Source: Malania oleifera
Lineage: Eukaryota > Streptophyta > Magnoliopsida > Santalales > Ximeniaceae
NCBI RefSeq assembly: GCF_029873635.1
Contig: NC_080419.1
Span: 79,840,931 to 79,904,930, forward strand
Direction: 5' to 3'
DNA length: 64,000 nt
Part shown: in pieces, positions 10,128 to 64,000 of the stretch
Numbering within the stretch: the stretch's first letter is position 1
Layout: the number at the start of each line of letters is the position of its first letter
The notes under the pieces: generated by a model
Databases searched by the model: none
Told to the model about the DNA's origin: nothing
Seen by the model: the letters and a program-made list of their open reading frames with translations, nothing else
Program-made: the position numbers and the translations under genes

Positions 10128-10706
10128 TGTAGAGACCCGAATAATTATCGTAATTTAATAATAGGAGGAGAAGGGAGAAGAAGAAATTAAATTTGGAATT
10201 TAAATAGGGTCTCGTCGACGGGGACACGTTTCTCATCGACAGGGACACGTTTCTCGTCGACGAGAAGATACCGAGAGGCTATATTTTAGTTCTAAATTTC
10301 GTCGACGAACTTCCTTCATGGCCTTGTCGATGAAGGCCACTGTATAAATGGCCTAAACTCAGAATTTTCCTTAGAAATCACGCGAAAATCACTCACTCAC
10401 TCACTCACTCAGTCTCTCACTCTCTCTCACTCTCTCTCTCTCTCGTTCATCCCTTCCCCCTTTTCTCTAAGATTTCGAGTTGGATTCTTGCTGGTTCGAC
10501 GATCCAAGGCCACCACGACATTCCTGGGAAAGTTCTCTTCAAATCTACTGGAGTGGATAGTTGGTGGGGCTGCCTTGGATTTCATCCCAAATTCAAGGTA
10601 AGACTTTTTATTCAATATTTGGCTTTTTCATAGTTATAAGAAATGTAGTACATGGAGAAATATTGAAGTTTTGTTCAGGGAGATATTGTTTTCAGACTGT
10701 TGAACG

Positions 10707-10773
<67 letters not shown>

Positions 10774-12542
10774 CGTCCCTTTCCCCTTTTCTCTAAGATT
10801 TCGAGTTGGATTCTTGCTGGTTCGACGATCCGAGGCCACCACGACACTCTTGGGAAAGTTCTCTTCAAATCTGCTGGAGTGGATAGTTGGTGGGGCTGCC
10901 TTGAATTTCATCCCAAATTCAAGGTAAGACTTTTTATTCAATATTTGGCTTTCCCATAGTTATAAGAAATGTAGTACATGGAGAAATACTGAAATTTTGT
11001 TCAGGGAGATATTATTTTCAGACTGTTGAACGGGAAACCCTACGGGTGTACGATTAGACACTGTAGGGGCTTTTCAGTAGTCAGGTAAGGAAATAAACTA
11101 AAATAGTAATTTTTCATGAAAATTATTATTATTTAGTAGCAGATTTATGTTCAGAAAGCATGTATTATATTTAAGCATATGTGTAGAAATGTATATTTGA
11201 AAAATACTGTCGTTACATAGGAATACGTATTTTTAGTATGATCATGTCAGGAAATGTGATTTCAGCACAAAAATTATGATTTTATTCAATTTGTGTGGTA
11301 TGAATATTATTTTACGCAAATTGTATTATGTTAAGTAAATTTTCTAGAAAAAACATGTTTCGGTGATTTTCAGGAATAACAGAATAATACAGTACACTAT
11401 GATTTTAGAATACATGGTAAATAATATATTTATTCATATCAGTATGTATGTTATGTTTGGTATAAGGCCATGATTGATAGTCGGCATAAGGTCGTGGATT
11501 ATGCATGTTTTCGGCGCAAGGCCACAGTTATGAATGTAATCGGCGCAAAGCCGTAATCATTTACGTTATTACGAAAATCAGAAAATGCTATTAATTTATT
11601 TATATTTTAACTGTATATTATCATGTATTATATGTTATTAGAATTCAAATGATAGTTTAGATTAGTTCCAGGAGCACGGTATCGTAGCTATACAGTTCAG
11701 TTCAGTTCAGACTTGTACTAACTACCCCTACTAGTAGAGGAGGTGGGAGATGGATAGTCGATGTGGCTTTCAGTGTAGTATTATAGACGTCCACCTGGAA
11801 GTCCGGACTAAGGTGTGGCGGGCCCATTATACTTACAAACATTTTTGACTTGACAATGGTCGGCCAACCATCGTCAGGTCCCACCTTTGGGGGCTACACA
11901 ACCTGTCATTGGGGGTAATACATGACATCAGCTAGCTATTCATCCTAGGTAAATTTCAGAATTATTAGTTATATCAGATGATTTTATGAACAAAGAAATA
12001 CAATATGATTTAGTAGAATTATGAAATTGTATGTTTAATCAGTTATGGTATTAACAGTGTTTTCACGCATGCAATGTGTACTATATATTTATTATAACAC
12101 GTAAATATTAATGTTACCACACAACTGTATTTAGTTTATTTCCCTTACTAAGAGGTGTCTCACCCTAACTTAAATCATTTCAGAGAACCCAGAGAGACAG
12201 TCGTACTGAGGCCGCCGTTGAGACAATTTGTACTACCCCACTAGGGGGATAAGTTTTTGAGTTAGAATCAGTAGGTTTTTGTTGAAAGATCCTTGATGTA
12301 TCTTTTGATGTTTAGAGGATGGTATATATACAGTATTATGGTGGATTGTAGATAACTCTGGTATTATGTACTTTATGGTTTGGAGAATGTAATTTATTTT
12401 TACAGCTGCTTAGGTTTCCACTGTGTATGATAGGTGTATCCCCGTTACCCACGGGTTCGAGTTGACTTTATTATATGACTAACTAGTTGTATCAAGGTGT
12501 TTAATGTGATTAACTATATAGCAAATTAAGCAGGTTGGTACA
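10128..12542 (+). repeat. Element A 3' LTR
   Basis: About 2.42 kb, beginning TGTAGAGACCCG and ending GGTACA, and followed by TATAG. It is about 258 bp longer than the 5' LTR because of an internal duplication of the (CT)n-to-GAACGGG segment. Confidence 0.93.
10430..11034 (+). repeat. Internal tandem duplication in the 3' LTR of element A
   Basis: The block from the CT-rich tract through TTCATCCC..., GGTTCGACGATCC..., to GTTGAACGGG occurs twice (about 10430-10708 and 10709-11034), joined at a long (CT)n run (10709-10770). The 5' LTR has it once, so it arose after or during the last retrotransposition. Confidence 0.88.
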
Positions 12543-16366: not shown

Positions 16367-16971
16367 TCACATGCTCCCTGCTCTGCCAGGAGCAGATTTC
16401 CCTCCCTTCAGTTTTGCCATGTCAACAAGGTCTCCAAATAGCTTATCCTCTGGCTTTGAAGGCTTGCTGGGCAGTCCATAGGATGAAGAGGAAACATGTT
16501 GATAGGAAGAGTTCCTCAAAGCACTGTCATCTCTCACAGAAAGCCCATACATTCTCTGCTCGATAAACTGAGCCTCTTGTGGACCATAACCATAGCCTGC
16601 CATCTGACTGCTGTACATTTGTTGAGGATACATGGAAACCATTGGGCTAGCTTGTACAGGCTGTGGAAGCATACCCATCAATTGCCCTCCCTGAATAAGT
16701 TGAGGATGAAAACCTCCGAATTGATTACTCTGGTTACTCATCATTGGCAGATGGCCACCAGTGTATGGTGGAATATACATACCTGCCATCTGATCATTAC
16801 CCATTGGCTGAGGACCTTGAGGAGGCATACCACTCTGCACTGGCTGCGAGTGTGTGATTACTGCCGGGGTAACTTGCATTGGAGGAGGAAGTTGAGTGCC
16901 TGCTAGTTGGCTACCATCCAATGGCTGAGCTTCCCAGGGGGGTGGTGGCAGTGATCCACTGTTCTGAGCAC
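16367..16971 (-). CDS. TOL9: TOL9-like exon 10 (C-terminus and stop)
   Basis: It begins with the completed Gly codon and [15 protein letters not shown], runs through Met/Gln/Pro-rich repeats ([19 protein letters not shown]), and ends [19 protein letters not shown] then SAPGRAGSM and TGA. The long disordered tail probably recruits endocytic partners. Confidence 0.94.
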
Positions 16972-19900
16972 CTGTCAAACCCAGACTTGGAATTTTATTT
17001 ATTATAATGCACAGCATAAAAGCAGCCCAAATCAGCTACATTTATTCTCTCCACCATTCAGTCCAAAACCACAACACCCAATATATTCAACCTAGTGGGG
17101 AGTACAAATGAACACCCCCCCCCCCCCTCCCCCGGGCCCAAAAAACCAACCAAGAGGCAAAAAAAAAATATATATGCAGACAAGAAAATGAAACAGAAAG
17201 AGAAATAAATAGAGGTCCTTGAATGACGTAGAAAAATGTACCATAGGCAGGTGATGGCGGTTGCTGCTGGTGGGCAATCTGGCCATTCCAGGCTTGGTTG
17301 GTGCCTTGTGGATACAGTGACTGATCATATTGAGGCAATGCCATGTTTGAGGCACTTCCATTTGGGTAAAATGTTGGTTGAGGAGATTGAAGGTTCTGCT
17401 GTGGTTGGAATTGTGAGGTCGAAGGAAATGTTTGCCCAGATGGATTGGCAGGCTGAGTATTTGATGAATTTGGAGTACTGTTGCTATCAGAGAACATGTC
17501 GAAAAGAACAAGGGCGTTCTGCTGAGATAAAGGACTCTTTGGCTGTGATTCGCCTATGGGAACAAGAGCCAAAGTATTCTCTACTGTTGGTGAATTATAA
17601 TCATCGCCACTTAACAAATCCATTTTGGGATCAACCTTTGTAGGAGTGACAGGGCCATTAGTTGAAAGAGGTGCAGGAAGTGCTAACTGAAGCGGCTGTG
17701 TCCCTGCACTGGAACCTGAGGTGGAACTGCAAAAGATTCCTGGAGTTGACATCATGGAATAATAACAAGGAGATCCCTCCTAACATTTCAAGTATCAACG
17801 AAACTACAATGCTGGTTCAATTTTAACCCATATACAGAATTCCAGAATTTCAGAGGTAAAAAATTAATATATCTCAAAACTCCATTTCAAGATCAACATT
17901 AATTTTTGAAATCTTCTTAATTTGCACGAGGTTCACTTATATGTGAAACCTAGTAGTCCTGAAGAACATGTGACTAAAACATTAGATCATGACTCTTCTA
18001 AGATTTTAACAGCACAAACTCAATCAACCACTACAAGAGAACAAAGGCTTATTTGGAAAAACTATGCTCAGCCCCTGTTTGGTAACACTTAAAAAAAACG
18101 TGCTATGAGTGCTTGTGCACTTGGGGCTTATAAAAAATTAGCAGTGTAACAGTCATGGGCCCAACTCCGGTGAGGTATTGTCTGTGTTGGCTCATTGGCC
18201 TCACGGGTTTGTCCAATAAAAGGCGCCACACATACTTGAAGTTCAAACCATCCTCATAAGCACAAGATCTCCCAAGTACACATTTGATGTGGGACCGTGA
18301 CAGGCTCTCCCGTCCGATCTCTGACGCCCTCATCAGAGTGGCTTACACCTATGTGTAGGATTCACCAACATGATAGTACCCCCAGGATAGCTCCGATACC
18401 AAATGTAACGATCCTAGGCCCAACTCCGATGAGGTATTGTCCGCTTTGGCCCACTGGCCTCACGGGTTTGTTCTATGAAAGGCACCTCACATAATTGGAG
18501 TCCAAACCATTCTTATAAGCCCAAGATCTCCCTAGTAGACATCCGATGTGGGACCGTAACACAAAGCCTAAATTAGACAACTGTAAAGTTTGTGTATTAA
18601 TTTACCAAGTTGAAATCCAGTGAAACCAACCTTTGAGGTTAGTCTTTATGTTCCAACTTCCACCCATATGAAACTAAATGGCAATAAACTCGCCAAACAG
18701 TTACACCATTAAAATGCTGGAAGCAATTCACACCCAACAGAACATGAACTTCCATTTAGCCTACTCATGTTCATTTGGCTAATTAAACTTTAGCAACATA
18801 AATACTGCACCATACTTGTATAATTCAAGTAAATTTAATTACCTGCCATCAGGCCTCTTGCTGCTATCTCCAACTAGAGGGGCAGAGACATCCACAAGTG
18901 CCCGAACAGATTCAGGCTTTGGTTTCTCCAATGGAATAGAAGTTCCTGAAGCAATTGCTTCATGCTTAGCTAGTAAACGCTGCAAGTCATCATTTAATGC
19001 TAGTCCTTGGCACAAGAGCGATTCATCCCTGAAACAGATAAATGAGTATTGATAAAAATGACAAATCATCATTCAAAAGATAAACTTTTGGGAGAATTCA
19101 TAAAATTGCTAACCATGTTTTTAAACTATTAAAAAGAATGAGCAAAATTTTCATTGTAACAAATTAAAGTTGTTAAATTAAAGTTGATTGCTTCAAGTAA
19201 AGGACCTCAGACTTGGTAACGCGAAGAAACTTTCATAAAGAAGTTTTGACAAGAGAGAATTGGATTAATTTGTGGACTTTAGTTAAGATGGAGCAGCTTT
19301 AAAGAAGAGATATCTTAATAAGAAAAACGTAGTTATTTCTCTTTCATTCTTTCTTTTGAGCAACTTGTCCCACTTTCTTACATTACTTCTCTTGGTTTTC
19401 CATTTGCTATTTCAAAGGGAAAAACAGAAAAATGAAAATAAAAATAAGAGCCTGTCAATCAAAAATCAAAAGCTTCATGACCAAGCATGGTATGCTTTAG
19501 CCTTTAACCTTGCTATGTGTTCTTTCTTCTCATAAGACTTCTCCCCAATTGGACGTGCTATTTTCCTACAACAAATCTTAACTAATTTCCTAATTTTTTA
19601 ATCTTGTTTCTAAGATAAGACAAGAAAAAAGAAGAAGAGGGGAAGAGGGATCTGGGATGATGTGGCAGCAGTACCTGCTACTGATTTATAGAGTACCTTT
19701 CTTTTTCCCCTTGGTTCCAAGTTAGAAGTTAATTATATAGTTGTTTTCTGCATCTAGTTAAGTCTTGAAATTTAGATCCTTTTTTTTTTTTTTTGGTGCA
19801 CAGTGTTTCTGCTATTGGTAAAGCGTGATTGATGATTTTTCTAACATTCTAAAAGTTTCTATTCTCATTATGTTCTAGTTGAAGTATAAAAGGATTTGCC

Positions 19901-47071: not shown

Positions 47072-47076
47072 CTACT

Positions 47077-47362
47077 TGTTAAGGAAGGTCATACTTCATG
47101 GCAACAATCTTTCCTAACGTCACAGTAAGTATCAAGTAAATTGGGGACTGACATTACGTGAACTTCCTATTTAAGAGAAATCAGCGAATCATCTAAATAT
47201 GGATAGGAGTGTGTAGATTAATTACATTCAATTTTATGTTCCCCATTTACATGTATAAATAGGGGTTGTATAAAGCTTGTAAATATAGACCAATAGCAAT
47301 CCATTCTTTGCTCTCTTTTGTTTTTTATTTTCCTCTCGTTTCTTTTTGCTCTAGTTTTATCA
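47077..47362 (+). repeat. Copia array LTR 1
   Basis: TGTTAAGGAAGG to TTTTATCA; TATA-like GTATAAATAGGGG near 47252. Confidence 0.93.
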
Positions 47363-47374
47363 TGGTATTAGAGC
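47363..47374 (+). other. PBS of Copia copy 1
   Basis: TGGTATTAGAGC, tRNA-Met type, directly after the LTR. Confidence 0.88.
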
Positions 47375-47943
47375 AAATTGATCCTTGAGAGGTAAAACTT
47401 TTGTTTGAGGATAATTCTCCTCAGTTTCGTTCCTCTGTTTCTGAATACCACAAAACAGAGGTTGTATTTCTCATATCTTCTCACGTCAATGTTACTATCA
47501 AATATTGAGTGTGGGTTTTATTTTTCAAAATTCCACTACTCTTGATTGTGTGATTATTATGATGCTCTCTATTTTGTCACTTGGTTCGATTTAATCAGTT
47601 AAATTTGATTTCTATTTTCATTGAGCATTTTGTCGAACAGTTGGGATGCACAACCTGCATATTGCATTTTTGTTTAAGGTTGAAGAAGGTGGGTTTTTAG
47701 GTTTTTTTTCCTAGGCCCAGTCCACGCACCCAATCACTCAATTCCATTTCTCTTCAGGTTGCACATTTTATTTTAGCCAATAGACTCTGATTTAAGCCCA
47801 GCTCATGCCACAGAATAGACCCACACTCCAGATCCAACCTGTATCACAAGTCCAAATTGTGCCCTGGTTCAGATTGCACCCGGGCCCGATTTGATCCGGT
47901 TCGACCCGGTCCATATTTTCAAAAAAAAATAGCTTCACTTCTT

Positions 47944-48870
47944 ATGGCTGAAAAGGCAACCAAAGTGGAAAATATGATGATCTTAATCTTCACATATGCC
48001 TCCAACAATCAAATCACCCTAAAATGATTTTGCTTTCTCCACCGCTCACAGAGGACAATTATTCCACATGGAGTCATGCGATGATTCTTGCACTCCAAGT
48101 GAAGAACAAAATCTACTTCATTAATGGCATGCTACCTTCACCATCTTTTGAATCCTTGGAACATTCACAATGGAGACGATGCAACATTATGGTAATTTCT
48201 TAGCTTCTCAATTCCATTTCGAAAGAGATTTCTAATAGTGTGACATATTGTGGAACTGCCCATGTCATATGGGAAGATCTAAAAGATAGATACTCCCAAG
48301 TCAATGGCCCTTGCTTATACAAGCTTCAACAAGATATTAATAATCTTGTTCAAGGATCTTTATCAATTAGTGCATACTTTGCAAAATTGAAGAGTTTGTG
48401 GGACAAGTTACACACAGTTCAAGGGATGTCTACTTGCACCTGCAGCACACGCAATGAGACTCTTACATAGCAATAACTAGATCATGTCTTGAAGTTTTTT
48501 ATGGGGCACAACGATTCCTACACTGCGATCCGTGGGCAAATACTTCTAATTGATCCACTTTTCACTCTTAACCGCACCTATGCCCTTGTGCTTTAATAAG
48601 AACGTCATTGCAACATTCTATCTCTACCATTCATTGAAGGTATTGCTCTGGTCACCACCAACTATCAACCATGAACGGAAGGACGCCCTAGTCCACCTAA
48701 GAAGCCTCTTAAATGTAATCACTGTGGCAAAAAGGGCCATATTGTGGATAGATGCTACTGCATCCATGGCTTCCCTCTAGCACCTTGTAACTCTAAGCCC
48801 AATCAGGGTCTGAAGCATAGTGCTCATCAAGCTTCTTCCAATCCATATACCAACAGCCTTCCTTTCACCT
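47944..48870 (+). pseudogene. Copia copy 1 gag with zinc knuckle
   Basis: LTEDNYSTWSHAMILALQVK, then GTAHVIWEDLKDRYSQVNGP and LQQDINNLVQGSLSISAYFA are the Copia gag core. A complete knuckle CNHCGKKGHIVDRC is encoded at 48714-48755. Stops and frameshifts interrupt the frame. Confidence 0.88.
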
Positions 48871-48959
48871 CTAAATAGTGCTAGTTCCTTTTGGCCATTC
48901 TCAATAACTCTGTTTCTTCTCAATTCATGGAACACCAAGTAGGTAGTGTCCAATCTTCA

Positions 48960-50260
48960 TTGTCAGGTAAGTCAAATAATGATATCTTACGGAATCTTGA
49001 CAGTGGCACAACTAATCACATGGTTTGCTCACCCACTGCTCTAACCCAATCTTTTCCAATACATGGTCGTACTATTCAATTACCAGATGGCTCTCATGCT
49101 ACCGTTACTCATATTGGATCAGTTACCTTTATTCCAATGTTATTTTAGACAATGTCCTTTGCATCCGGACTTTGTTATTCAACTTAATTTTTGTCCATAA
49201 ATTGTGCAAAACCCTTCATTGTCTCATTATTTTTTCTTCTGATTTTTGCTTCATTCAGGACCTATGCTTGATGAAGATGGTTGGGATGGGAACTGAGCGT
49301 TACGACTTATACCAATTCAACAACACTAGGAAAGCTTGTCATCAAATGGATACATCCATATCCACTTCCCAAATTTGGCACCGTCGTTTGGGTCATCTAT
49401 TAAATAAAAATCTATCTTTTCTTTCCAATAAATTCCTAAAAATTTGTAGTTCCAAATTGGAATCATTTTTAATTTTTCCATTGGCTAAACTAACTCATGC
49501 ACCTTTTCCATTTAGTTCCATTTCTTCTCTTAAACCTTTTTACCTATTGCATGTTGATATTTTGGGGGAGCCATCGTATCCCTTCCACCATTGGTGCACA
49601 CTATTTCTCTTACCATTGTTGATGATTATACCCGTTGTACCTAGGTTTACTAAATGCGCTATAAATCTGACACCTGCTCTCTCTCGCAATCCTTCATTCA
49701 CCTTGTTGAAAACCAATTCTTCACCACCATAAAAATCATCTGAAGTGATAATGAGCTTGAGTTTGGCATGCCCTCATTTTATGCCCCCCAAAGGCATCGT
49801 ACATCAAACCAGTTGTGTCAACACTCCCCAACAAAATGGAGTAATTGAACACAAACATCGTCACCTTCTTAATGTTGCTCATGCATTAATTTTTCAAGTC
49901 TATATGCCTAAACACTTTTGGGGGGATGTCATTCTTGCTGCAACTTATCTCATTAATCGAACCCCTTCTCCCATTTGAGGTGATTTGTCTCCTTACGAGA
50001 GATTGCATAATGTCAAACCTACATACAATCACCTGCTAGTGTTTGGATGCTTATGTTTTGCTTCCACTTACTCACAAAACCCAGCTAAGTTTGATCCAAA
50101 GGGAACTCGATGTGCTTTTATTGGTTATCTATATGGTCAAAAGGGATACCAACTTTATAATGTTGCAACACATAAAATCTTTGTGTCTCGAGATGTTCTC
50201 TTTCATGAAGATTTCTTCCCTTTTGCATCATCTACACCTAAGACCACGGAACCTACCCTA
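48960..50260 (+). pseudogene. Copia copy 1 protease and integrase
   Basis: The protease motif LDSGTTNHMVCSP is at about 48996. Integrase shows the HRRLGHLLN zinc part near 49380, [50 protein letters not shown] and SPYERLHNVKPTYNHLLVFG. Frames shift between pieces. Confidence 0.88.
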
Positions 50261-50519
50261 CCTTGTCCTATTCCCTCTCTTAACCACATCACAGAAATCT
50301 TCGTCACCATCTTTTTCCTCACCGCGTACCTCTCCTCCATCCCCATCCACTTCTTTACCTTCTTCTCCACCACCCCGACAATCTAGTCGTCCTACTCAGC
50401 TACCGACATACTTATAAGATTTTCATCTAGAACAAGCTTTGCCATCTTGGCCCACTCAATCATCTGACTCTGCAATGGTCTATTCGTAAAGTACTCTTTA
50501 TTCTCTCAATGATTTTATG

Positions 50520-51441
50520 TCTTATTCACGCTTATCTACTTCTCATCGTGCTTTTTCTACAGCCCTCTCTCTTGCCAAAGAACTCCAGTCATTTTTTTCA
50601 GGCCATGACAAATCCCAGTTGGCGTATTACCATGCATGCTGAAATTGATGCCCTCAAGTTCAACAAAACCTAACATCTTACTCCTCTCCCTCTTGGTAAG
50701 AAACCCACTGGCTACAAATGGGTCTATAAGATCAAATACAACCTTGATGGATCCATCGAACAATACAAGGCTCGCTTAGTTGCCGAGGGCTTCAGCCAAT
50801 AAGAAAGCATTGACTAAATCGAGAAATTTTCTTCGGTTGCTAAAATGACCACCGTTCGTATCATTTTGGATCTTTCTTATGCACACAACTGGCACCTTTA
50901 TCAACTCAATCTCAACAATGCTTTTCTTTATGGCTATCTTGATGAAGAAGTCTATAAGCAACTTGATTCGGGGTTCAGATGAAAGGGGGAGACTAGATTT
51001 TGCAAGCTCATTAAGTCTCTGTATGGTCTCAAACAAGTTTCGAGAAAATGGTATGCCAAACTTTCATCCACTCTCATTTATGCAGGATACAAAAAATCCA
51101 AGGTAGATTATTCACTCTTTGTCCAATCCTATGAGGGCAATTTCACTACCATTTTAGTCTATGTGGATGATATTATTGTTGCAAGAAACAATTTGGAACA
51201 GGTAAATGAAGTCAAGAAATACCTAGGCAGCCATTTCAAACTCAAAGATCTAGGAATCCTCAAATACTTTATGGGGATCTAAGTGACTCATTCAGCCAAA
51301 GGAATATGTTTATCTCAAAGGAAGTATGCACGTGAGATATTAGAAGAGTCAGACTTCATTGGAGTTAAGTTTGGAAACTTTCCCACGAATCAAAATATTG
51401 CACTCAACAAGAGTAAGGGCATACTTATCTCAGATCCTTAT
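50520..51441 (+). pseudogene. Copia copy 1 reverse transcriptase, 5' part
   Basis: [71 protein letters not shown] and the intact active site [11 protein letters not shown]. Stops replace W and Q codons. It runs into the solo LTR at 51442. Confidence 0.9.
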
Positions 51442-53229
51442 TGTTAATCGTCCCACACGCGAGTATATAGAGTCAAAGGGGGGAGGATTTTTCTCGTATT
51501 TAGGATTTCTCTACAAAATAAAACTCTTGGCAATATTCAAGTAATTAAATCACAATATACAAAATATAAATCATGCACTAAACAAATAAAATAAAGAGTA
51601 AGGAGAGAAAATCTTAACACTAGTAGTTAACGTAGTTCGACACCAAGCCTACGTCTATGCCTTAAGACCAAGCCAAGGATTCCACAATCCACTATAAAAC
51701 TCCTTCATCAGAGGAGCAAGCCTTACAACTCGGGTTCCAAACCCTACACTCGAGAAAAAATATCTACCGCACTCACCAAGAGCCATAAGGATCACTAAGA
51801 TGCCTTGCCAATTGGTTCACCAAGAACCTTCACCAAGTTGGTTCACAAAGCACCTTTTACAAGAGGATGGGTATACAAAGAAATGCTCCTTGATTGAGCT
51901 AATATCACTTAGAAAACAAACCTCACACTATTCTCTCAAGGATTGAATCAAACACAATTTAGAGAGCAAGAGAGATTGAGCACTTGAAATGAATACCTAA
52001 AATACAGCGTGCTAGGTTTTGAATAAAATGATATTTTTCACTATGGACTTGTATAAATCACCAAAACCATACTAAAGAAGTCTATGGACTTGTATTTGTA
52101 ACCAAAACCACGAACTAGTCATTATTAGACTGTTGGGAGCAATTCTCAAAAGAAACTAGCCATTTTCTAGCCATTGGTGCGCTGTGTACGAGGCCAATTG
52201 TCGACGAGCCACCTAAGCTGATAACTCGTTTTAGCTACTAGAATCGTTCGTTGATGAGCCAAAACACATTTGTCGACGAGTCTCCTGTATTTGTCGACTA
52301 GTCTCTTGTTTTCTTTACTAAAGAGCCTTTTAATGACTTAAAACATTCTTGGACACAAGTATAAGAAATATATTAAGTCTAATGAAGATCAAAACTTGTC
52401 CAAGTGAGTTTTCCTTTGAATATAAGATATCTTGTTAATAAAAACACATTTGAAAAACCATTTTGATATCTTATGAATTTGTATGTCCTTTATTGAAAAT
52501 ATACTTGACTTTCTTTGAACCTTTAGGACATAAGACTCGTTTAGATAAAACCGGGACTAAGTATGAAGATGATCTTAAAACTAAGATGTTAAAAACTTGT
52601 CCCTTGGAAAACATATTTTGAGTTTAGGAATCTTTTTGACAAACTCTTTGATTTTAACTTTTAAAACTATTAAAGTTAAGTTTGTGACTTTAGGTGAAAT
52701 CCTATTTACTCATGTGTCCTAGTATGCATGCATTTGATCAACTCTTACTCAAAAATCATGCAAGAAATAAAACGCAAGAGTTACAACATGTTACTACCAC
52801 ACACAACCCTTATTACATATAATTACACAATCAATCTTCCTTTGGTTGTGCTTGAGTCATTTCCAAGTGAGTGTCCTTTTGATCTTTCCTACTTGATGTC
52901 AACTCGGTCCAATCTTTGCCTTTGATCCAGTACTTCATGTATTCGTGACTAGAACATGTACTAAACATGATATGCGAAGATAGGAATGCACTAGGAACAA
53001 CATATAGGTTAATATCATCAAAACATATAAACTATGATGGTGTAGCCACCAAGACTAATATTCTCCCCCTTTTTGATGATGTCTAACCTATTAAGAATCT
53101 ACTTAATCTTTGCATTTGTATTTAAAATTACCATATTCTTAACATGCAAAGATAAGCTTACATAAAACCACTAATGGGTTGTTATCATCAAAAAAGACAA
53201 TTAAACTCATGTAGCCACCAAGGCTAACA
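51442..53229 (-). mobile_element. Long Copia-type solo LTR inside copy 1 RT
   Basis: 1788 bp from TGTTAATCG to GGCTAACA in plus reading, with the perfect duplication CTTAT (51437-51441 and 53230-53234). The segment near 53072 reads as GACATCATCAAAAAGGGGGA on the minus strand, a signature of SIRE/Maximus-type elements, which suggests minus orientation. It carries TTGTCGACGAG motifs at about 52199-52304. Confidence 0.85.
52196..52304. promoter_or_regulatory. GTCGACGA motif cluster in the solo LTR of copy 1
   Basis: TTGTCGACGAGCC, TCGTTGATGAGCC, TTTGTCGACGAGTC and TTTGTCGACTAGTC lie within 110 bp. The core is the same as in Gypsy LTRs A and B. Confidence 0.55.
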
Positions 53230-53850
53230 CTTATCATATAGGCGGCTTGTTAGAAGACTAATTTATCTGGCCATCATAAGACCAGAATTAGCCTATTCAG
53301 TGCATGTACTACGTCAGTTTATGGACAAGCCACAAATACCACACTTGGATGCAGCACATAGGGTTCTACAGTACCTTAAGAAATCTCTAGGTCAAGGGAT
53401 TTTCTTATGTGCTTCTAGTGAAATCTAGCTCCATGCATGTTGTGATGCAGATTGAGCACACAGCAAGGACACTAGACGATCAGTCACTAGGTATTGCATC
53501 CTACTAAGAAAATCTCTCATTTCCTAGAAGACCAAGAAATAAACAATAGTTTCATGCTCTTAAGTAGAAGCAAAATATAGGTCTATGGCCTCTACATGTT
53601 GTGAGGTTACATGGCTAAAAGCTTTACTCTCAGATCTTGAAGTAAATGCATTCTCAACCAGTCAAATTGTACTGTGATAACAAGGCCGCTATACACATTG
53701 CCTCAAATCCAGTGTTCCAGGAACGGACCAAGCATATCGCGATAGATTGTCATGTGGTTCGAGAAAAACTCTATAATGGCATCATTCAAATAGTAGACAT
53801 GCATACAAGCTAATAACCCACTAATCTTTTTACCAAAGCTCTTGGATTCA
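53230..53850 (+). pseudogene. Copia copy 1 RT end and RNase H
   Basis: RRLVGRLIYL-type start followed by RPELAYSVHVLRQFMDKPQI and VLQYLKKSLGQGIFL. RNase H pieces are CDAD, RSVTRYCILL and VEAKYRSMASTCCEVTWLKA. Many stops. Confidence 0.85.
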
Positions 53851-53904
53851 CACAATTTAATTATATACTCAGCAAGTAGGGTGTCATAAATATCTACACC
53901 AACT

Positions 53905-53914
53905 AGAGGAGGAG
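53905..53914 (+). other. Polypurine tract of Copia copy 1
   Basis: AGAGGAGGAG abuts the middle LTR. The same tract precedes LTR 3 at 60674-60682. Confidence 0.85.
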
Positions 53915-54200
53915 TGTTGAGGAAGTTCATACTTCATGGCAACAATCTTGCCTAATATCACATCAAGTATCAAGCAAATTGGGGACTGATATTACGTGAA
54001 CTTCCTATTTAAGAGAAGTCAGCGAATCATTTAAAAATGGACAAGAGCATGTAGATTACTTACATTAAATTTTATGTTCCCCATTTACATGTATAAATAT
54101 GGGTTATATAGAGCTTGTAAATATAGATCAATAGCAATTCATTCTTCGCTCTCTTTTGTTCTTTATTTCCCTATCGTTTCTTTTTGCTCTAGTTTAATCA
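53915..54200 (+). repeat. Copia array LTR 2 (shared)
   Basis: TGTTGAGGAAGT to TTTAATCA; a PPT on its left and a decayed PBS (TGGTATCAGATC) on its right show its double role. Confidence 0.93.
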
Positions 54201-54775
54201 TGGTATCAGATCAAATAGATCCTTTAGAGGTAAAACTTTTGTTTGAGGATAATTCTCCTCGGTTTCATTCTTTGTTTTTGAATACCATAAAACAAAGGTT
54301 GTATTTATCATATCTTCTCACATCAGCGTTACTGTCAAACGTTGAGTGTGGGGTTTTATTTTTCAGAATTCCACTACTCTTGATTGTGGGATTATTCTGA
54401 TGCTCTCTATTTTTCACTTGGTTCGATTAATCAATTCAATTTGATATCTATTTTCATTGAGCATTTTTTCGAATAGTTGGGGTGCATAACCTACATATTG
54501 CATTTTTGCTTAAGGTTGAAGAAGGTGGGTTTTTGGGTTGTTTTTCCTATTCCAAAGCCCAGTCCACGCACACAGTCACTCCATTCCATTTCTCTTTGGG
54601 TTGCACATTTTATTTTAGCCAAAAGACTTTGATTTAAGCTTAGCCCATGTCACAGAATAGACCCGCGCCCAAGATCCGACTCGCATCACGAGTCTAGATC
54701 GCGCCCTAGTTCAGATCGCACCCTGATCTGGTCTGACCTAGTCCGTATTAAAAAAAGAAAAACAACTCCACTTAC

Positions 54776-55600
54776 AATGGCTAAAAAGGCAACCAAGGTG
54801 GAAAAATATGATGATCCTAATAATCACTTATGCCTCCAGTAATCAGATCACCCTGGACTAATTTTGGTTTCTCCACTGCTCCCAGAGGACAATTATTCCA
54901 CATGGAGCCGTGTGATGATTTTTGTACTCTAAACGAAGAACAAAATCTTCTTCAGTGATGACACGCTATCTTCACCATTTCTAGAATCCTTGGAACACTC
55001 ACAAGAGATGATGCAACATTATGGTAATTTCTTGGCTTCTCAATTCCATTTCAAAAGAGGTTTCTAATAATGTGATCTATTGTGAAACTGCCCACGCCAT
55101 ATGGGATGATCTAAAAGATTAATACTCCCAAGTCAATGGCCCCTGCTTACACAAGCTTCAACAAGATATTAATATTCTTGTTCAAGGATCTTAATTAATT
55201 AGTGCATACTTTTCCAAATTGAAGAGTTTGTGGGACGAGTTACGTAAAGTTCAAAGGATGTCTACCTGCACCTGCAGCGCACACATGGAGTCTCTTACAC
55301 AAAAAGAACTAGATCATATCTTGAAGTTTTTGATGAGGCTCAACGTTTCCTACAATGAGATCTATGGGAAAATACTTCTGATTGATCCACTTCCCATTCT
55401 CAACTGCACTGATGCCCTTGTGCTTCAAGAAGAACGCCATCGTAGCATTCTATCTCCACCATCCATTGAAGGTATTGCTCTAGCCGCCACCAACTATCAC
55501 CCATAAAAGGAAGGACACTTTGGTTCACTTAGGAAATCTCTTGAATGTGCTCACTGTGTGGCAAAAAAGGCCATAGAGTGGATCGATGCTACCACATCCA
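54776..55600 (+). pseudogene. Copia copy 2 gag
   Basis: It is homologous to copy 1 gag: LPEDNYSTWS-type start, then SLWDELRKVQRMSTCTCSAH and LKFLMRLNVSYNEIYGKILL. The knuckle zone near 55547 has an extra base that shifts the frame after CAHC. Confidence 0.85.
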
Positions 55601-55799
55601 TGGCTTCCCTCCAAGACGTTGTAAGTCTTAGCCTAATCAGGGTTCGAAGTATAGTGCTCATCAAGCTTCTTCCAATCCATATTCCAACAATCTTCCTTTG
55701 ACCTTTGAACAGTGCTAACAACTTCTAGCTATTCTCAACAACTTTGTTCCCCCCTTAATCCATGGCACACCATGTAGGTAGTGTCGAATCTTCATTGTT

Positions 55800-57130
55800 A
55801 GGTAAGTCTAATAATGATATTTTGTGGATTCTTGACAGTGGCGTAACCGATCATATGGTTTGTTCACCCACTACTCTAACCTAATCATTCTCAGTACATG
55901 GTCGTACTGTTCAATTACCGGATGACTCTCATGCCACTGTTACTCATATTGGATTAGTTCACTTTTCTTCCAATCTTATTTTAGATAATGTCCTTTGCAT
56001 CTTGACTTTTCATTTTAACTTAATTTCTATCCGTAAATTGCACAAAACCCTCCATTGTCTCATTATTTTCTCTTTTGATTTTTGTTTCATTAAGGATCTA
56101 CGCTTGATGAAGATGATTGGGATGGGGATTGAGAGGGACGACTTATACCACTTCACCAATATTAGGAATGCTTGTTGTCAGGTGGCTACATCCACATCCA
56201 CTTGCCAACTTTGGCACCGTCGTTTGGGTCATCTATGAAATAAAAATCTATTTTTTCTTTCCAATAAATTCCCAGAAATTTGTAGTTCCAATTCAAAATC
56301 ATGTTTAATTTTCCTATTGGCTAAACAAACTCGTGCACCTTTTCCATCTAAATCCATTTCTTTTCTTAAACCTTTTGACCTATTGCATGTTGATATTTGG
56401 GGGGAGCCATCGCGTCCCTTCCACTATTGGTGCACACAATTTTCTTACCATTGTTGATGATTATACCCGTTGTACCTGGGTTTACTCAATACGCGACAAA
56501 CTTGACACCACCGACTCTCTCTTGCAATCCTTCATTCACTATGTTGAAAACCAATTCTCCACCACCATAAAAATCATCTGAAGCGATAGTGAGCTTGAGT
56601 TTGACATGCCCTCATTCCATGCCCTCAAAACATCGTACATCAAACCAGTTGCGTCAACACTCCCCAACAAAATGGAGTAGTTGAATACAAACACTGCCAC
56701 CTTCTTGATCTTGCACGTGCATTAATTTTTCATGCCCATATGCCTAAACACTTTCGGGGGTATGTCATTCTTACTACAACTTATATCATTAATTGAGCCC
56801 CTTTCCTGTTTAGGAGGTTTGTCTCCTTATGAGAGATTGCATAATGTCATACCTACATGCAATCACCTGCTAGTTTTTGGATGCTTATGCTTTGCTTCCA
56901 CTCACTCGCAAAACCCCAGCTAAGTTCGATCCAAGTGCAACTCGATGTGCTTTTCTTGGTTATCTATATGATCAAAAGGGATATCGAATTCATAACCTTG
57001 CAACACATAAAGTCTTTGTGTCTTGAGATGTTCTCTTTCATGAAGATTTCTTCCCTTTTGCATCATCTACTCCTAAGCCAACGGAACCCATCCTACCTTG
57101 TCCTACTCCCACTCTTGACCACATCACATA
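55800..57130 (+). pseudogene. Copia copy 2 protease and integrase
   Basis: ILDSGVTDHMVCSP is the protease site near 55828. Integrase pieces include LWHRRLGHL, FLTIVDDYTRCTWVYSIRDK with catalytic Asp, TPQQNGVVEYKH and SPYERLHNVIPTCNHLLVFG. Stops and frameshifts are present. Confidence 0.87.
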
Positions 57131-57137
57131 AATTCCA

Positions 57138-59060
57138 TGTTGGAATTGGTGTATTCCCAAGAGGGGGTGAATTGGGTATTTAAAACTTCCTAAGTTGATT
57201 TCAGTTCCACAAACAGTATTTCCCAACCTAGGGTCTATCTATGCAATCCCAAATGTACAGATAAATATAAAGTGCGAAAATTAAGTCATGCACAACATTC
57301 ACAGACTATTGAAAGTAACATACACGTGCAGTAAATAAATTGCAAAAACTTAAATTACACACATGATATATTATTGGGGTTCGGCTAATACTGCTTACGT
57401 CCCCACCTTAGCTTGCAAGCCCAAGGATTCCACTAATGCTCACTTAATGAATGAAGCGGCACTGGTTACAACCAAGTCAAATTCACAGGGCTGACATCAA
57501 CCTTTACACACTCTCCTTGTGGGGCGGAGAAGGCCCTACCAATCCTTACGGACTAGATCAACGCCCCCTTAGGCTACGCCTAGAATACAACCAATTCAGA
57601 ATACAAAGTGTGTACAAAATGAATGTTTCTCCAACAAGCAAATTTGTACCAATATCAATCAATGCACATCAACAAGATAGAAACAATAAGCTCAGTGCTA
57701 TATATGTTGTCACTCAATCTAATGTCAATACGCAGTCAAGTTCAAGAGTGTATAATCAATCTATCTTTGAAACAATGTATCAGAATTAATCAATCACAAC
57801 TAGGGTTTCAAAGAGTTCCAACAAGTGTATTCAAAACATCTTAAAAATAATTATCTTAAAATATTAGCTCAAGAAATATTTGAAGTATAGACTTTTCAAA
57901 AAATAATTTTTGCACAATCAAAATACAAACCTCGAAGTCTTGCAATACAAATGCCAAGACTCACAAGCTTCAAAGTTTTCCCAACACAATGAAATTATTA
58001 AATAAACCGAAGGAAAAACTTAGGTTAAAACTTTCAATAAAAATCAGTGTATCAACAAAACCAATGAGAGTTTGAGCAACTAGAATCAATGTAAAATCAC
58101 TCAAGGCACTCTCACCAAACTAGATTTAGCAAAGGAATAACAAGGGTGAGTGTATAGGCCTTGTTCTTGGAAGAATGAGCTTTGAAAAATTTCAGAGAAT
58201 TTTCTCTTAATCAAACATGCTAATCACTTGTTAATCTGAGCAAATGAGCACATATATATATATAGACATGACACAAATTATGACCGTTGGGGACACTAGG
58301 GAAATTATTAAATTTGTTTCAAATGTGTTTAATAAAATTAACCTTGTTTTACCCCAATTAACTCTCGGTAAAATTAGGCAAACCCGAGAGTTTTGGTTGA
58401 CCGAACCATAGGTTTAGTTGCCCGAATAGACACATGAGAAAAAGTGATTTTTCCATTTCGAGTGCCTGAAAATAAGTTCGGTCTACTGACCAATGCAATT
58501 TTCCAAAATATCTGAGGTTCAGTCACTTGGACTCAAGTTCGGTCTACCGAACTTGTATGTTCGGTCGCCCAAGGGTATTTTGAACATGAAGTTCGGGTGC
58601 CCGTCGATGGTCAAAAAGTCCTTATTCAAGGTTTGATCGACCATGAATGTTTAGTTCATTTCGTTTCGGTCGCCCGACCCAAGTCAAACTTTTGACCAGT
58701 AAACAATTAGGTCAACTGAGCATTTTTAATGTGCCTGGTTCGGTCACCCGAAGCTCTTTCATTTTTTACACCTAAGTCATATTTTCACCCCTGATTGCAT
58801 AGATGATAGTAGGGATTTTCTTAAGTGTTTATGCAAGGACCTAGGGTCAATCTACGGCCAAGGCTTTTTAACTTAGCATTAAAAACCTGGCATCGGTCTA
58901 CTCTAAGGTCATTTGAGCTTATAGTTCCTACCATGCATGACATGCATTAATTATTATAGACCTTGGCATATTAAATATTATAGACCCAAATGAATGAAAT
59001 ATAAATTACAAATAATAAACAATTCGGTCTTCATTTTTCTTCGAGTCTTCACATACACCA
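57138..59060 (-). mobile_element. Long Copia-type solo LTR inside copy 2
   Basis: An insertion of about 1.92 kb, absent at the same place in copy 1 (near 50300). It starts TGTTGGAATTGGTGTATTCC in plus reading, a known SIRE-type LTR end on the minus strand. The outer edges keep ATTC on both sides (57132-57135 and about 59062-59065), but the duplication is not clean. On the minus strand a motif array (58755-58385) precedes a TATATATATA box (near 58260). Confidence 0.75.
58385..58755 (-). promoter_or_regulatory. TCGGTC/ACCGA motif array in solo LTR of copy 2
   Basis: About ten variants of TTCGGTCNCCCGAA lie within 370 bp, including the perfect-armed AAGTTCGGTCTACCGAACTT near 58540. The array lies upstream of TATA in the minus orientation. 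Confidence 0.6.
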
Positions 59061-60190
59061 TATTCGTCACCATCTTTTTCCTCACTCTTCTCCATCCCCA
59101 TCCACTTCTTTACCCTCTTCTCCACCACCTCGACGATCTAGTTGTCCTACTTAGCTATCGACATACTTGCAAGATTTTCATGTGGAACAATCTTTGTCAA
59201 GTCGGCCCACTTAATCATCTAACTTTGCAATAGTTTGTTCATCAAGTACTCTTTATTCTCTCACTGATTTTATGACTTATTCTCACTTATCTCCTTCTCA
59301 CCGTGCTTTCACCACAACCCTCTCTTTTGCCAAAGAACCCCAGTCATTTTTTCAATTCATGACAAATCCCAACTGGCGTACTACCATGCGTGCTAAAATT
59401 GATTCCCTCAAGTTTAACAAAACCTGGCATTTTATTCCTCTCCCTCCTAGGAAGAAACCCATTGGCTGCAAATGGGTCTACAAGATCAAATACAACCCTG
59501 ATGGATCCATCGAATGGTACAAGACTCGCCTAGTTGACAAGGGCTATAACCAATAAGAAGGGATTGACTACACTAAGACATTTGCTTCGGTTACTAAAAT
59601 GACTACCATTCATACCATTTTGGTTCTTGCTTCCGCTCACAACTAGCACCTCCATCAACTCGATGTCAACAATGCTTTTATCTATGGTGATCTTGATGAA
59701 GAATTCTATATGCAACTTCCTCTGAGGTTCAAACAAAAGGGGGAGACTAGAGTTTGCAAGCTCGTTAAGTCTCTGTATGGTCTCAAACAAGCTTCAACGC
59801 AATGGTATGCCAAAATTTCATCCACTCTCATTAATGCAAGATAAAAACAATACAAGGCAATTTATTCACTTTTCGTACGATCCCATAAAGACAATTTCAC
59901 TACCATTTTAGTCTATATGAATGATATTATTGTTGTAGGAAACCAGTTTAGGACAGGTTAATGAAGTCAAGAAATACGTAGGCGATCATTTCAAACTTAA
60001 AGATCTAGGAATCCTCAAATAATTTCTAGGGATCAAAGTGGCTCGTTCATCCAAAGGAATATTTCTATCTCAAAGGAAGAATACACTCGAGATATTAGAA
60101 GATACATGCTTCCTTGGAGCTAAGCCTAGAAACTTTCCTAGGGATCAAAATCTTGCACTTAACGAGAGAGAGAGCATACTCATCTTAGTG
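59061..60190 (+). pseudogene. Copia copy 2 reverse transcriptase
   Basis: [59 protein letters not shown] and [12 protein letters not shown]. The active site reads LVYMNDIIVVG, with the first Asp changed to Asn. After GIFLSQRKNTLEILEDTCFL a deletion at about 60186-60189 removes the RT-RNase H junction present in copy 1. Confidence 0.9.
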
Positions 60191-60640
60191 AAATCTAGTT
60201 CCATGCATACTGTGATACGGATTGGGCACGCTGCAAGGACAACAGATGATCAGTCACTAGGTATTGCATCCTACTCAGAAAATCAACTATTTCTTGGAAG
60301 ACCAAGAAACAAACAACAGTTCACCCTCCTCAACTGAAGCAAAATATAGGTCTATGGCCTTTACATGTTGTGAGGTTACTTGACTAAAAGCTTTACTCTC
60401 AGATCTTGAAGTAATGCATTCTCAACCAATCAAACTGTACTGTGATAACAAGGACGCTATACACATAACCTCAAATCCAGTGTTCCATGAACGAACCAAG
60501 CATATTGAGATGGAGTGTCATATGGTTCTAGAAAAACTCCATAATGGCATCATTCAAACAGTCTGCATGCATACAAGCTAGCAACCCTCTAATCTTTTTA
60601 CCAAAGCTCTTAGATTCACACAATTTAATCACTTACTCAA
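60190..60640 (+). pseudogene. Copia copy 2 RNase H, partial
   Basis: It starts directly at VKSSSMHTVIRI (frameshifted), with DQSLGIASYSENQLF and SKAKYRSMA-like and NPVFHERTKHIEMEC-like pieces. The N-terminal catalytic part is lost in the deletion. Confidence 0.8.
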
Positions 60641-60682
60641 CAATTTGAGTGTCATAAATATCCACGCTAACTTGAGGAGGAG

Positions 60683-60966
60683 TGTTGAGGAAGGTCTACT
60701 TCATGGCAACAATCTTGCCTAACATCACGGCAAGTGTCAAGCAAATTGGAGACTGTTACATGAACTTTTCCTATTTAAAAGAAGTTAGCGAATAATCTAA
60801 ATATGGATAGGAGCATATAGATCAATTACATTCAATTTTATGTTCCCCATTTACATGTATAAATAGGGGTTCTATAGAGCTTGTAAATATTGATCTATAG
60901 CAATTCATTCTTTGCTCTCTTTTGTTCTTTATTTCCCTCTCATTTATTTTTGCTCTAGTTTTATCA
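60683..60966 (+). repeat. Copia array LTR 3
   Basis: TGTTGAGGAAGG to TTTTATCA, followed by CTACT; several small deletions compared with LTR 1 and LTR 2. Confidence 0.93.
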
Positions 60967-60971
60967 CTACT

Positions 60972-63136: not shown

Positions 63137-63974
63137 TCATTGGTGACAATGGGTTATGGATTTAAATCCCATACCCTTTGATGTTTTCCAAACCATGTCT
63201 CTTGCAAGTCCTTTTGTTAATGGGTTAGCCAAATTTTGGCTTGATCTCACAAAATCTATGGTAATTACACCATCAGTAATCAACTGCCTCACATAACTAT
63301 ATCTTAGGTCAAAATGCCTGGATTTACCATTATATATATTACTATATGCCCATGACAAAGTTGCCTCACTATCACAATGTAAAGATATAGGTGGCATAGG
63401 CTTTGGCCAAATTGGAATTTCTAATAGCAAATTCCTAAGGCATTCTACCTTTTTGCTACAAGAAGCTAGAGCCACAAATTCTGATGCCATAATGGAATCT
63501 GTTACAAGGCTTTACTTCTTTGAACCCCAGGGGCCAGGAGATAGCTCCTTTACCAAGGGTGAATATCCATCCACTGGTTGATGTATGATTATTATGATCA
63601 GTTATCCAACTAGCATCTGTGAATCCTTCTAAAATAGTAGGATATCCTTCATAATGTATGCCATAATCCATAGTATTTTTCAAATACTTCAACACTTTAT
63701 ACATAGCATGCCAATGAATATCACTAAGATTACTATTATATCTACTAAGTTTACCTACAAAAAATACAATATCAGGTCTAGTAGAAGTCATAGCATACAT
63801 CGAACAACCAATAACTCTAGCATATTCTAACTGATTTATTGCTCTACTAGTGTTAGGATATAATTTCAAATTTGCATCAAAAGGTGTGCTAACAGGTTTG
63901 CACATAAAATCATATATTTTAGAAAATATTTTAATAGTAAAAAGAACATATGAGGGAAAATGAGGGAGAGACAC
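63137..63974 (-). pseudogene. Right-edge Copia RT end and RNase H, broken
   Basis: CKPVSTPFDANLKLYPNTSR, GCSMYAMTSTRPDIVFFVGK and GFTDASWITDHNNHTSTSGW are followed, after a frameshift near 63480, by ASEFVALASCSKKVECLRNL and CDSEATLSWAYSNIYNGKSR, ending THCHQ and stop. Before CKPV the sequence (KIFSKIYDF) does not match Copia RT and shares a 26-base stretch with the element's own LTR. Confidence 0.85.
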
Positions 63975-64000
63975 AACTTGACATTCGAGCCATATCCCAA

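Follow-up and report, generated by a model that had tools for sequence, protein, structure and literature searches.

A decayed tandem Copia array with three LTRs and one outer target-site duplication in Malania oleifera

Tandem arrays of LTR retrotransposons have been described in several plants. PMC11899658 reports 266 tandem arrays in rice, from a pangenome built on 76 accessions, and more in Arabidopsis, almond and cotton, and presents them as common, polymorphic and widespread in plants. An earlier sequence-only reading of the Malania oleifera locus described here had called such structures seldom reported, which these figures contradict, and the array is an unremarkable example of a known structure, one that is frequent in plants. 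Perfect 5-nt duplications were found in 10 of the 28 Nipponbare tandems (PMC11899658), and PMC7215508 cites at least 4600 tandem structures for BARE1 in barley. For plant arrays, PMC11899658 leaves the choice between exchange and tandem integration undecided. In the present array enough sequence is preserved for the age of the tandem step to be compared with that of the insertion, which is the point at issue there.

The Malania array was similar to the rice insertions TLI1 and TLI2 and to the IDENTAM candidates in its alternating LTRs and internal regions, its shared inner LTR and the single insertion inferred for it, and it shared with the rice tandems a short outer duplication (5 nt in the text and 4 bp in one figure legend of PMC11899658). 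However, 82% of the 28 Nipponbare tandems are gypsy and 80% have LTRs more than 95% identical (PMC11899658), while the Malania array is a Copia one and its LTRs share about 90% identity. The BARE1 tandems cited in PMC7215508 likewise have three LTRs and two internal regions. The route proposed for them is recombination between proximal LTRs, whereas here the matching outer duplications and the absence of a selection signature point to one insertion. The Cassandra (TRIM) arrays of PMC7215508 also consist of head-to-tail units with shared LTRs, but they lack gag and pol and form long arrays, in contrast to the two coding-type units found here, both of which are decayed.

Self-comparison of the window (the whole 64,000-nucleotide stretch of contig NC_080419.1 that was analysed) showed the order CTACT, LTR1, internal A, LTR2, internal B, LTR3, CTACT (Table 1). 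The three LTRs were direct copies, all on the + strand, with pairwise identities of 90.2-90.4% over aligned columns, and internals A and B were collinear, with three aligned pieces in matching order. CTACT abutted LTR1 on the left and LTR3 on the right, flush at both ends; by our own estimate a flush 5-bp match would arise by chance in about 1 in 4^5 cases, or about once per 1000. A polypurine tract ending GAGGAGGAG lay directly left of both LTR2 and LTR3. The primer-binding site to the right of LTR2 read TGGTATCAGA, and its counterpart to the right of LTR1 read TGGTATTAGA. LTR2 is thus bordered by a polypurine tract on the left and a primer-binding site on the right, without a duplication of its own, so that the inner LTR is shared by both units and the target-site duplication is found at the outer ends only, as in a tandem LTR-retrotransposon insertion. 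The sequence-only reading had proposed this order with its coordinates, CTACT at the two outer ends only, and a polypurine tract and primer-binding site on the left and right of the middle LTR, and all of this was borne out by the self-comparison and by reading the junctions. It had also held that target-site duplications flanking LTR2 would speak against a single insertion; none were present at the LTR2 junctions, and the single insertion survives this check. Its description of the array as intact holds for the order of LTRs and internal regions but fails for the coding content, where frames are broken and inserts are present.

Table 1. Features of the tandem array, in positions of the window.
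Feature	Position	Strand	Length	Details
Left target-site duplication	47072..47076			CTACT; sequence read
LTR1	47077..47362	+	286 bp	TG...CA; alignment and sequence read
Internal A	47363..53914	+		Primer-binding site at left end; gag, gag_pre-integrs, SH3_retrovirus and RVT_2 pieces; stops and frameshifts; polypurine tract at right end
Nested insert in internal A	51442..53229		1788 bp	CTTAT at 51437-51441 and 53230-53234; ends TGTTA...TAACA
LTR2	53915..54200	+	286 bp	Shared middle LTR; target-site duplication of its own absent; alignment and sequence read
Internal B	54201..60682	+		Decayed; gag_pre-integrs and RVT_2 pieces; alignment and Pfam
Nested insert in internal B	about 57134..59059		~1.93 kb	Ends approximate; imperfect AATTC/TATTC flanks
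LTR3	60683..60966	+	284 bp	TG...CA; alignment and sequence read
Right target-site duplication	60967..60971			CTACT; sequence read

The Pfam search covered 17 stop-free pieces, of which 13 lay in the array (one of these in the nested insert of B) and four in the rest of the window. Retroelement families were matched by seven of the array pieces, with an E of 3e-6 or better. Six of these seven matches passed the curated cut-off, and the gag_pre-integrs match of B fell slightly short (27.7 vs 28.4 bits). The remaining six array pieces showed no retroelement match in Pfam. The order of matches in internal A was gag (48204-48467), gag_pre-integrs, SH3_retrovirus and RVT_2, and in internal B gag_pre-integrs lay upstream of RVT_2, which was matched twice. 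The integrase core itself was outside the pieces searched, and an RNase H part at 53267-53425 in A, which had no Pfam match, was identified only by eye. In Copia elements the integrase precedes RVT_2. The array element, with integrase-region domains before an RVT_2-type reverse transcriptase, is by this domain order a Ty1/Copia LTR retrotransposon, and it also has TG...CA LTRs, a 5-bp target duplication, a primer-binding site and a polypurine tract. We take the primer-binding site to fit the initiator tRNA-Met. BARE1, too, is a Copia element.

The array is old and decayed, and it is not intact in coding content. Reading frames were broken in both internal regions, 23 gap runs separated A and B within the aligned internal pieces, and about 0.18 kb kept in A around 53235-53416 was missing from B. 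The nested inserts of the two units stand at different places and therefore probably each arrived after the duplication. We infer that the insert at 51442-53229 is probably a solo LTR of another family. BLAST gave no convincing match between the A insert and the B insert, with a best E of 0.05 or worse outside the Copia flanks. By eye, however, the two are arranged alike close to their left ends, where both contain CCAAGGATTCCAC, and they may represent distantly related solo LTRs from a single superfamily.

After a late exchange LTR2 would be a mosaic, the exchange marking the split of its left part from LTR3 and of its right part from LTR1. The sequence-only reading had expected one side of LTR2 to share variants with LTR1 and the other side to share them with LTR3, but this pattern did not appear. 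A scan of all breakpoints over 29 positions (13 with LTR1 as the odd one out and 16 with LTR3) detected no mosaic (permutation P = 0.52 for the orientation predicted, 0.77 for its opposite), and the LTR1-LTR2, LTR2-LTR3 and LTR1-LTR3 distances were all 0.102 (282 gap-free columns). The 16 positions were what was left of 18 LTR3-odd positions once the neighbouring gap columns 77 and 89 had been removed by hand, and a further 13 LTR2-only and two all-different positions carried no signal for the scan. In simulations on gap-free columns (400 runs each), a score no higher than that observed was reached in 46% of runs when tandem and insertion were equally old (ratio 1); the share was 25% at a tandem-to-insertion age ratio of 0.8, 2% at 0.5 and 0% at 0.3. 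The scan therefore has little power against an early exchange, and an exchange that took place between still identical LTRs is compatible with the absent mosaic.

Under a late exchange, the sum of the LTR1-LTR2 and LTR2-LTR3 distances minus the LTR1-LTR3 distance measures the age of the tandem, and the LTR1-LTR3 distance measures the age of the insertion. From the LTRs alone, the ratio of the two ages was 1.00 (95% bootstrap interval 0.45-1.91), with 4.3% of 5000 replicates under 0.5 and 17.6% under 0.7. Internals A and B differed at 627 of 4537 aligned sites (13.8%) and were thus more diverged than the LTRs (0.138 vs 0.096-0.098; P of 0.02-0.03 at equal rates, with or without correction for trinucleotide context). 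With equal rates and a ratio of 1, 39 differences were expected between LTR1 and LTR3 and 27 were observed (P = 0.02), while a ratio of 0.8 gave P = 0.0004. Among 284-site windows of the internal regions, 8.7% diverged as little as the LTRs. The excess is modest, and a lower substitution rate in LTRs or gene conversion between them would account for the LTR deficit. Base composition was rejected as the source of the lower LTR divergence, the expectation corrected for trinucleotide context being 38.9-39.8 differences against 27-28 observed. Late unequal LTR recombination should leave a mosaic LTR2 and internal regions closer to each other than the outer LTRs are, and neither was found. Judged by these distances, the tandem appears to have formed at the insertion or in the earlier part of the insertion's life. 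The relation is reversed in rice TLI1, where the internal regions are 94% and the LTRs 85-89% identical, and in TLI2 both are 99% identical (PMC11899658).

To place the A-B differences by codon position, we used eight hand-framed coding pieces with 2650 aligned sites. The counts at positions one, two and three were 144:119:109 (chi-square P = 0.07 against equality), and the third-position share was 0.293 (95% CI 0.247-0.342). No third-position excess was found between A and B in the eight pieces; if anything, position one held the excess. The context-corrected expectation, ~130:123:126, comes from an earlier framing that had two stretches out of frame. Since the internal regions carry no sign of coding selection between them, their divergence was probably acquired after insertion, and this result together with the matching outer CTACT supports one insertion and one parent. 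Units A and B thus probably derive from one parent.

We favour, at a probability of roughly 0.55, a single Copia insertion followed by an early unequal exchange between LTRs and then by decay. One Copia element would have inserted once, producing the 5-bp duplication CTACT. While the LTRs were still identical or nearly so, the 3' LTR on one chromatid or homologue would have recombined with the 5' LTR on its partner, and the exchange would have duplicated one LTR and the internal region to give LTR-internal-LTR-internal-LTR. Later decay would have brought substitutions, indels, a nested insert in each unit and, in B, a small deletion. This reading is supported by the outer CTACT pair, the junctions of LTR2 with the polypurine tract and primer-binding site, the collinear internal regions, the codon-position counts, the equidistant LTRs with their age ratio of 1.00, and the differently placed inserts. 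LTR2 has no direct crossover mark, which counts against an exchange. A late exchange predicts internal regions less diverged than the LTRs, the reverse of what was observed, so that a slower LTR rate or LTR gene conversion must be assumed. In plants, recombination between LTRs occurs often, and it works best on young, identical ones; it is for these reasons, and not from a mark in the sequence, that we favour exchange, and both the exchange and its early date are inferred. The array could, with lower probability, have integrated as a ready-made tandem, made from a concatenated transcript or cDNA or as a one-LTR-circle product, and the tandem would then be as old as the insertion. The age ratio of 1.0, the equidistant LTRs and an internal divergence not below that of the LTRs all agree with this, and PMC11899658 and, in the case of Cassandra, PMC7215508 discuss such integration as a possibility. 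However, the interval of the ratio reaches 0.45, so that an exchange before the midpoint of the insertion's history fits equally well, and two units, ~10.2 kb without the later inserts, would be large for one particle. Only tentatively, then, might the locus be regarded as a datable ready-made two-unit Copia tandem, with insertion and tandem of the same age, no crossover mark and internal regions no more alike than the LTRs. Early exchange and tandem integration would both fit, and this sequence does not separate them. Extended over many arrays, the same comparison of LTR distances, taken with internal divergence, could separate late exchange from tandem integration.

Two separate elements of the same family, joined when a cDNA recombined into a resident LTR or when neighbours fused through their proximal LTRs, are an improbable source. 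The greater divergence of the internal regions than of the LTRs would suit such an origin, and integrase-independent integration into pre-existing elements has been reported for yeast (cited in PMC11899658). Divergence between two elements that were both active would be expected to leave a third-position excess, but the differences were distributed 144:119:109. Neighbours that fused would be expected to have different outer flanks, but CTACT lies at each end. The sequence-only reading had proposed a single integration and traced the tandem to LTR-LTR exchange or to a concatemer, and the outer CTACT pair and the LTR2 junctions support it. It had also raised duplication of one element by the assembly, for which we found no favourable point; the 13.8% divergence over the internal alignment, the 23 gap runs and the differently placed inserts exclude it.

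Elsewhere in the window, the four pieces searched had no Pfam match at E 0.01, and Rfam (gathering thresholds) and a tRNA scan of the whole window found nothing. An open piece at 63459-63998 on the - strand, without a Pfam match at that E, looked by eye like the terminal part of a Copia reverse transcriptase/RNase H region. Two long open pieces at 16370-17779 on the - strand, also without a match at E 0.01, looked plant-gene-like by eye and are presumably TOM1-like. A segment of ~2 kb was present twice in the self-comparison, at 560-2716 and 10128-12542, with the copies 79-90% identical, and the second copy held a near-adjacent 320 bp repeat (10389-10708 and 10715-11034; 93%).
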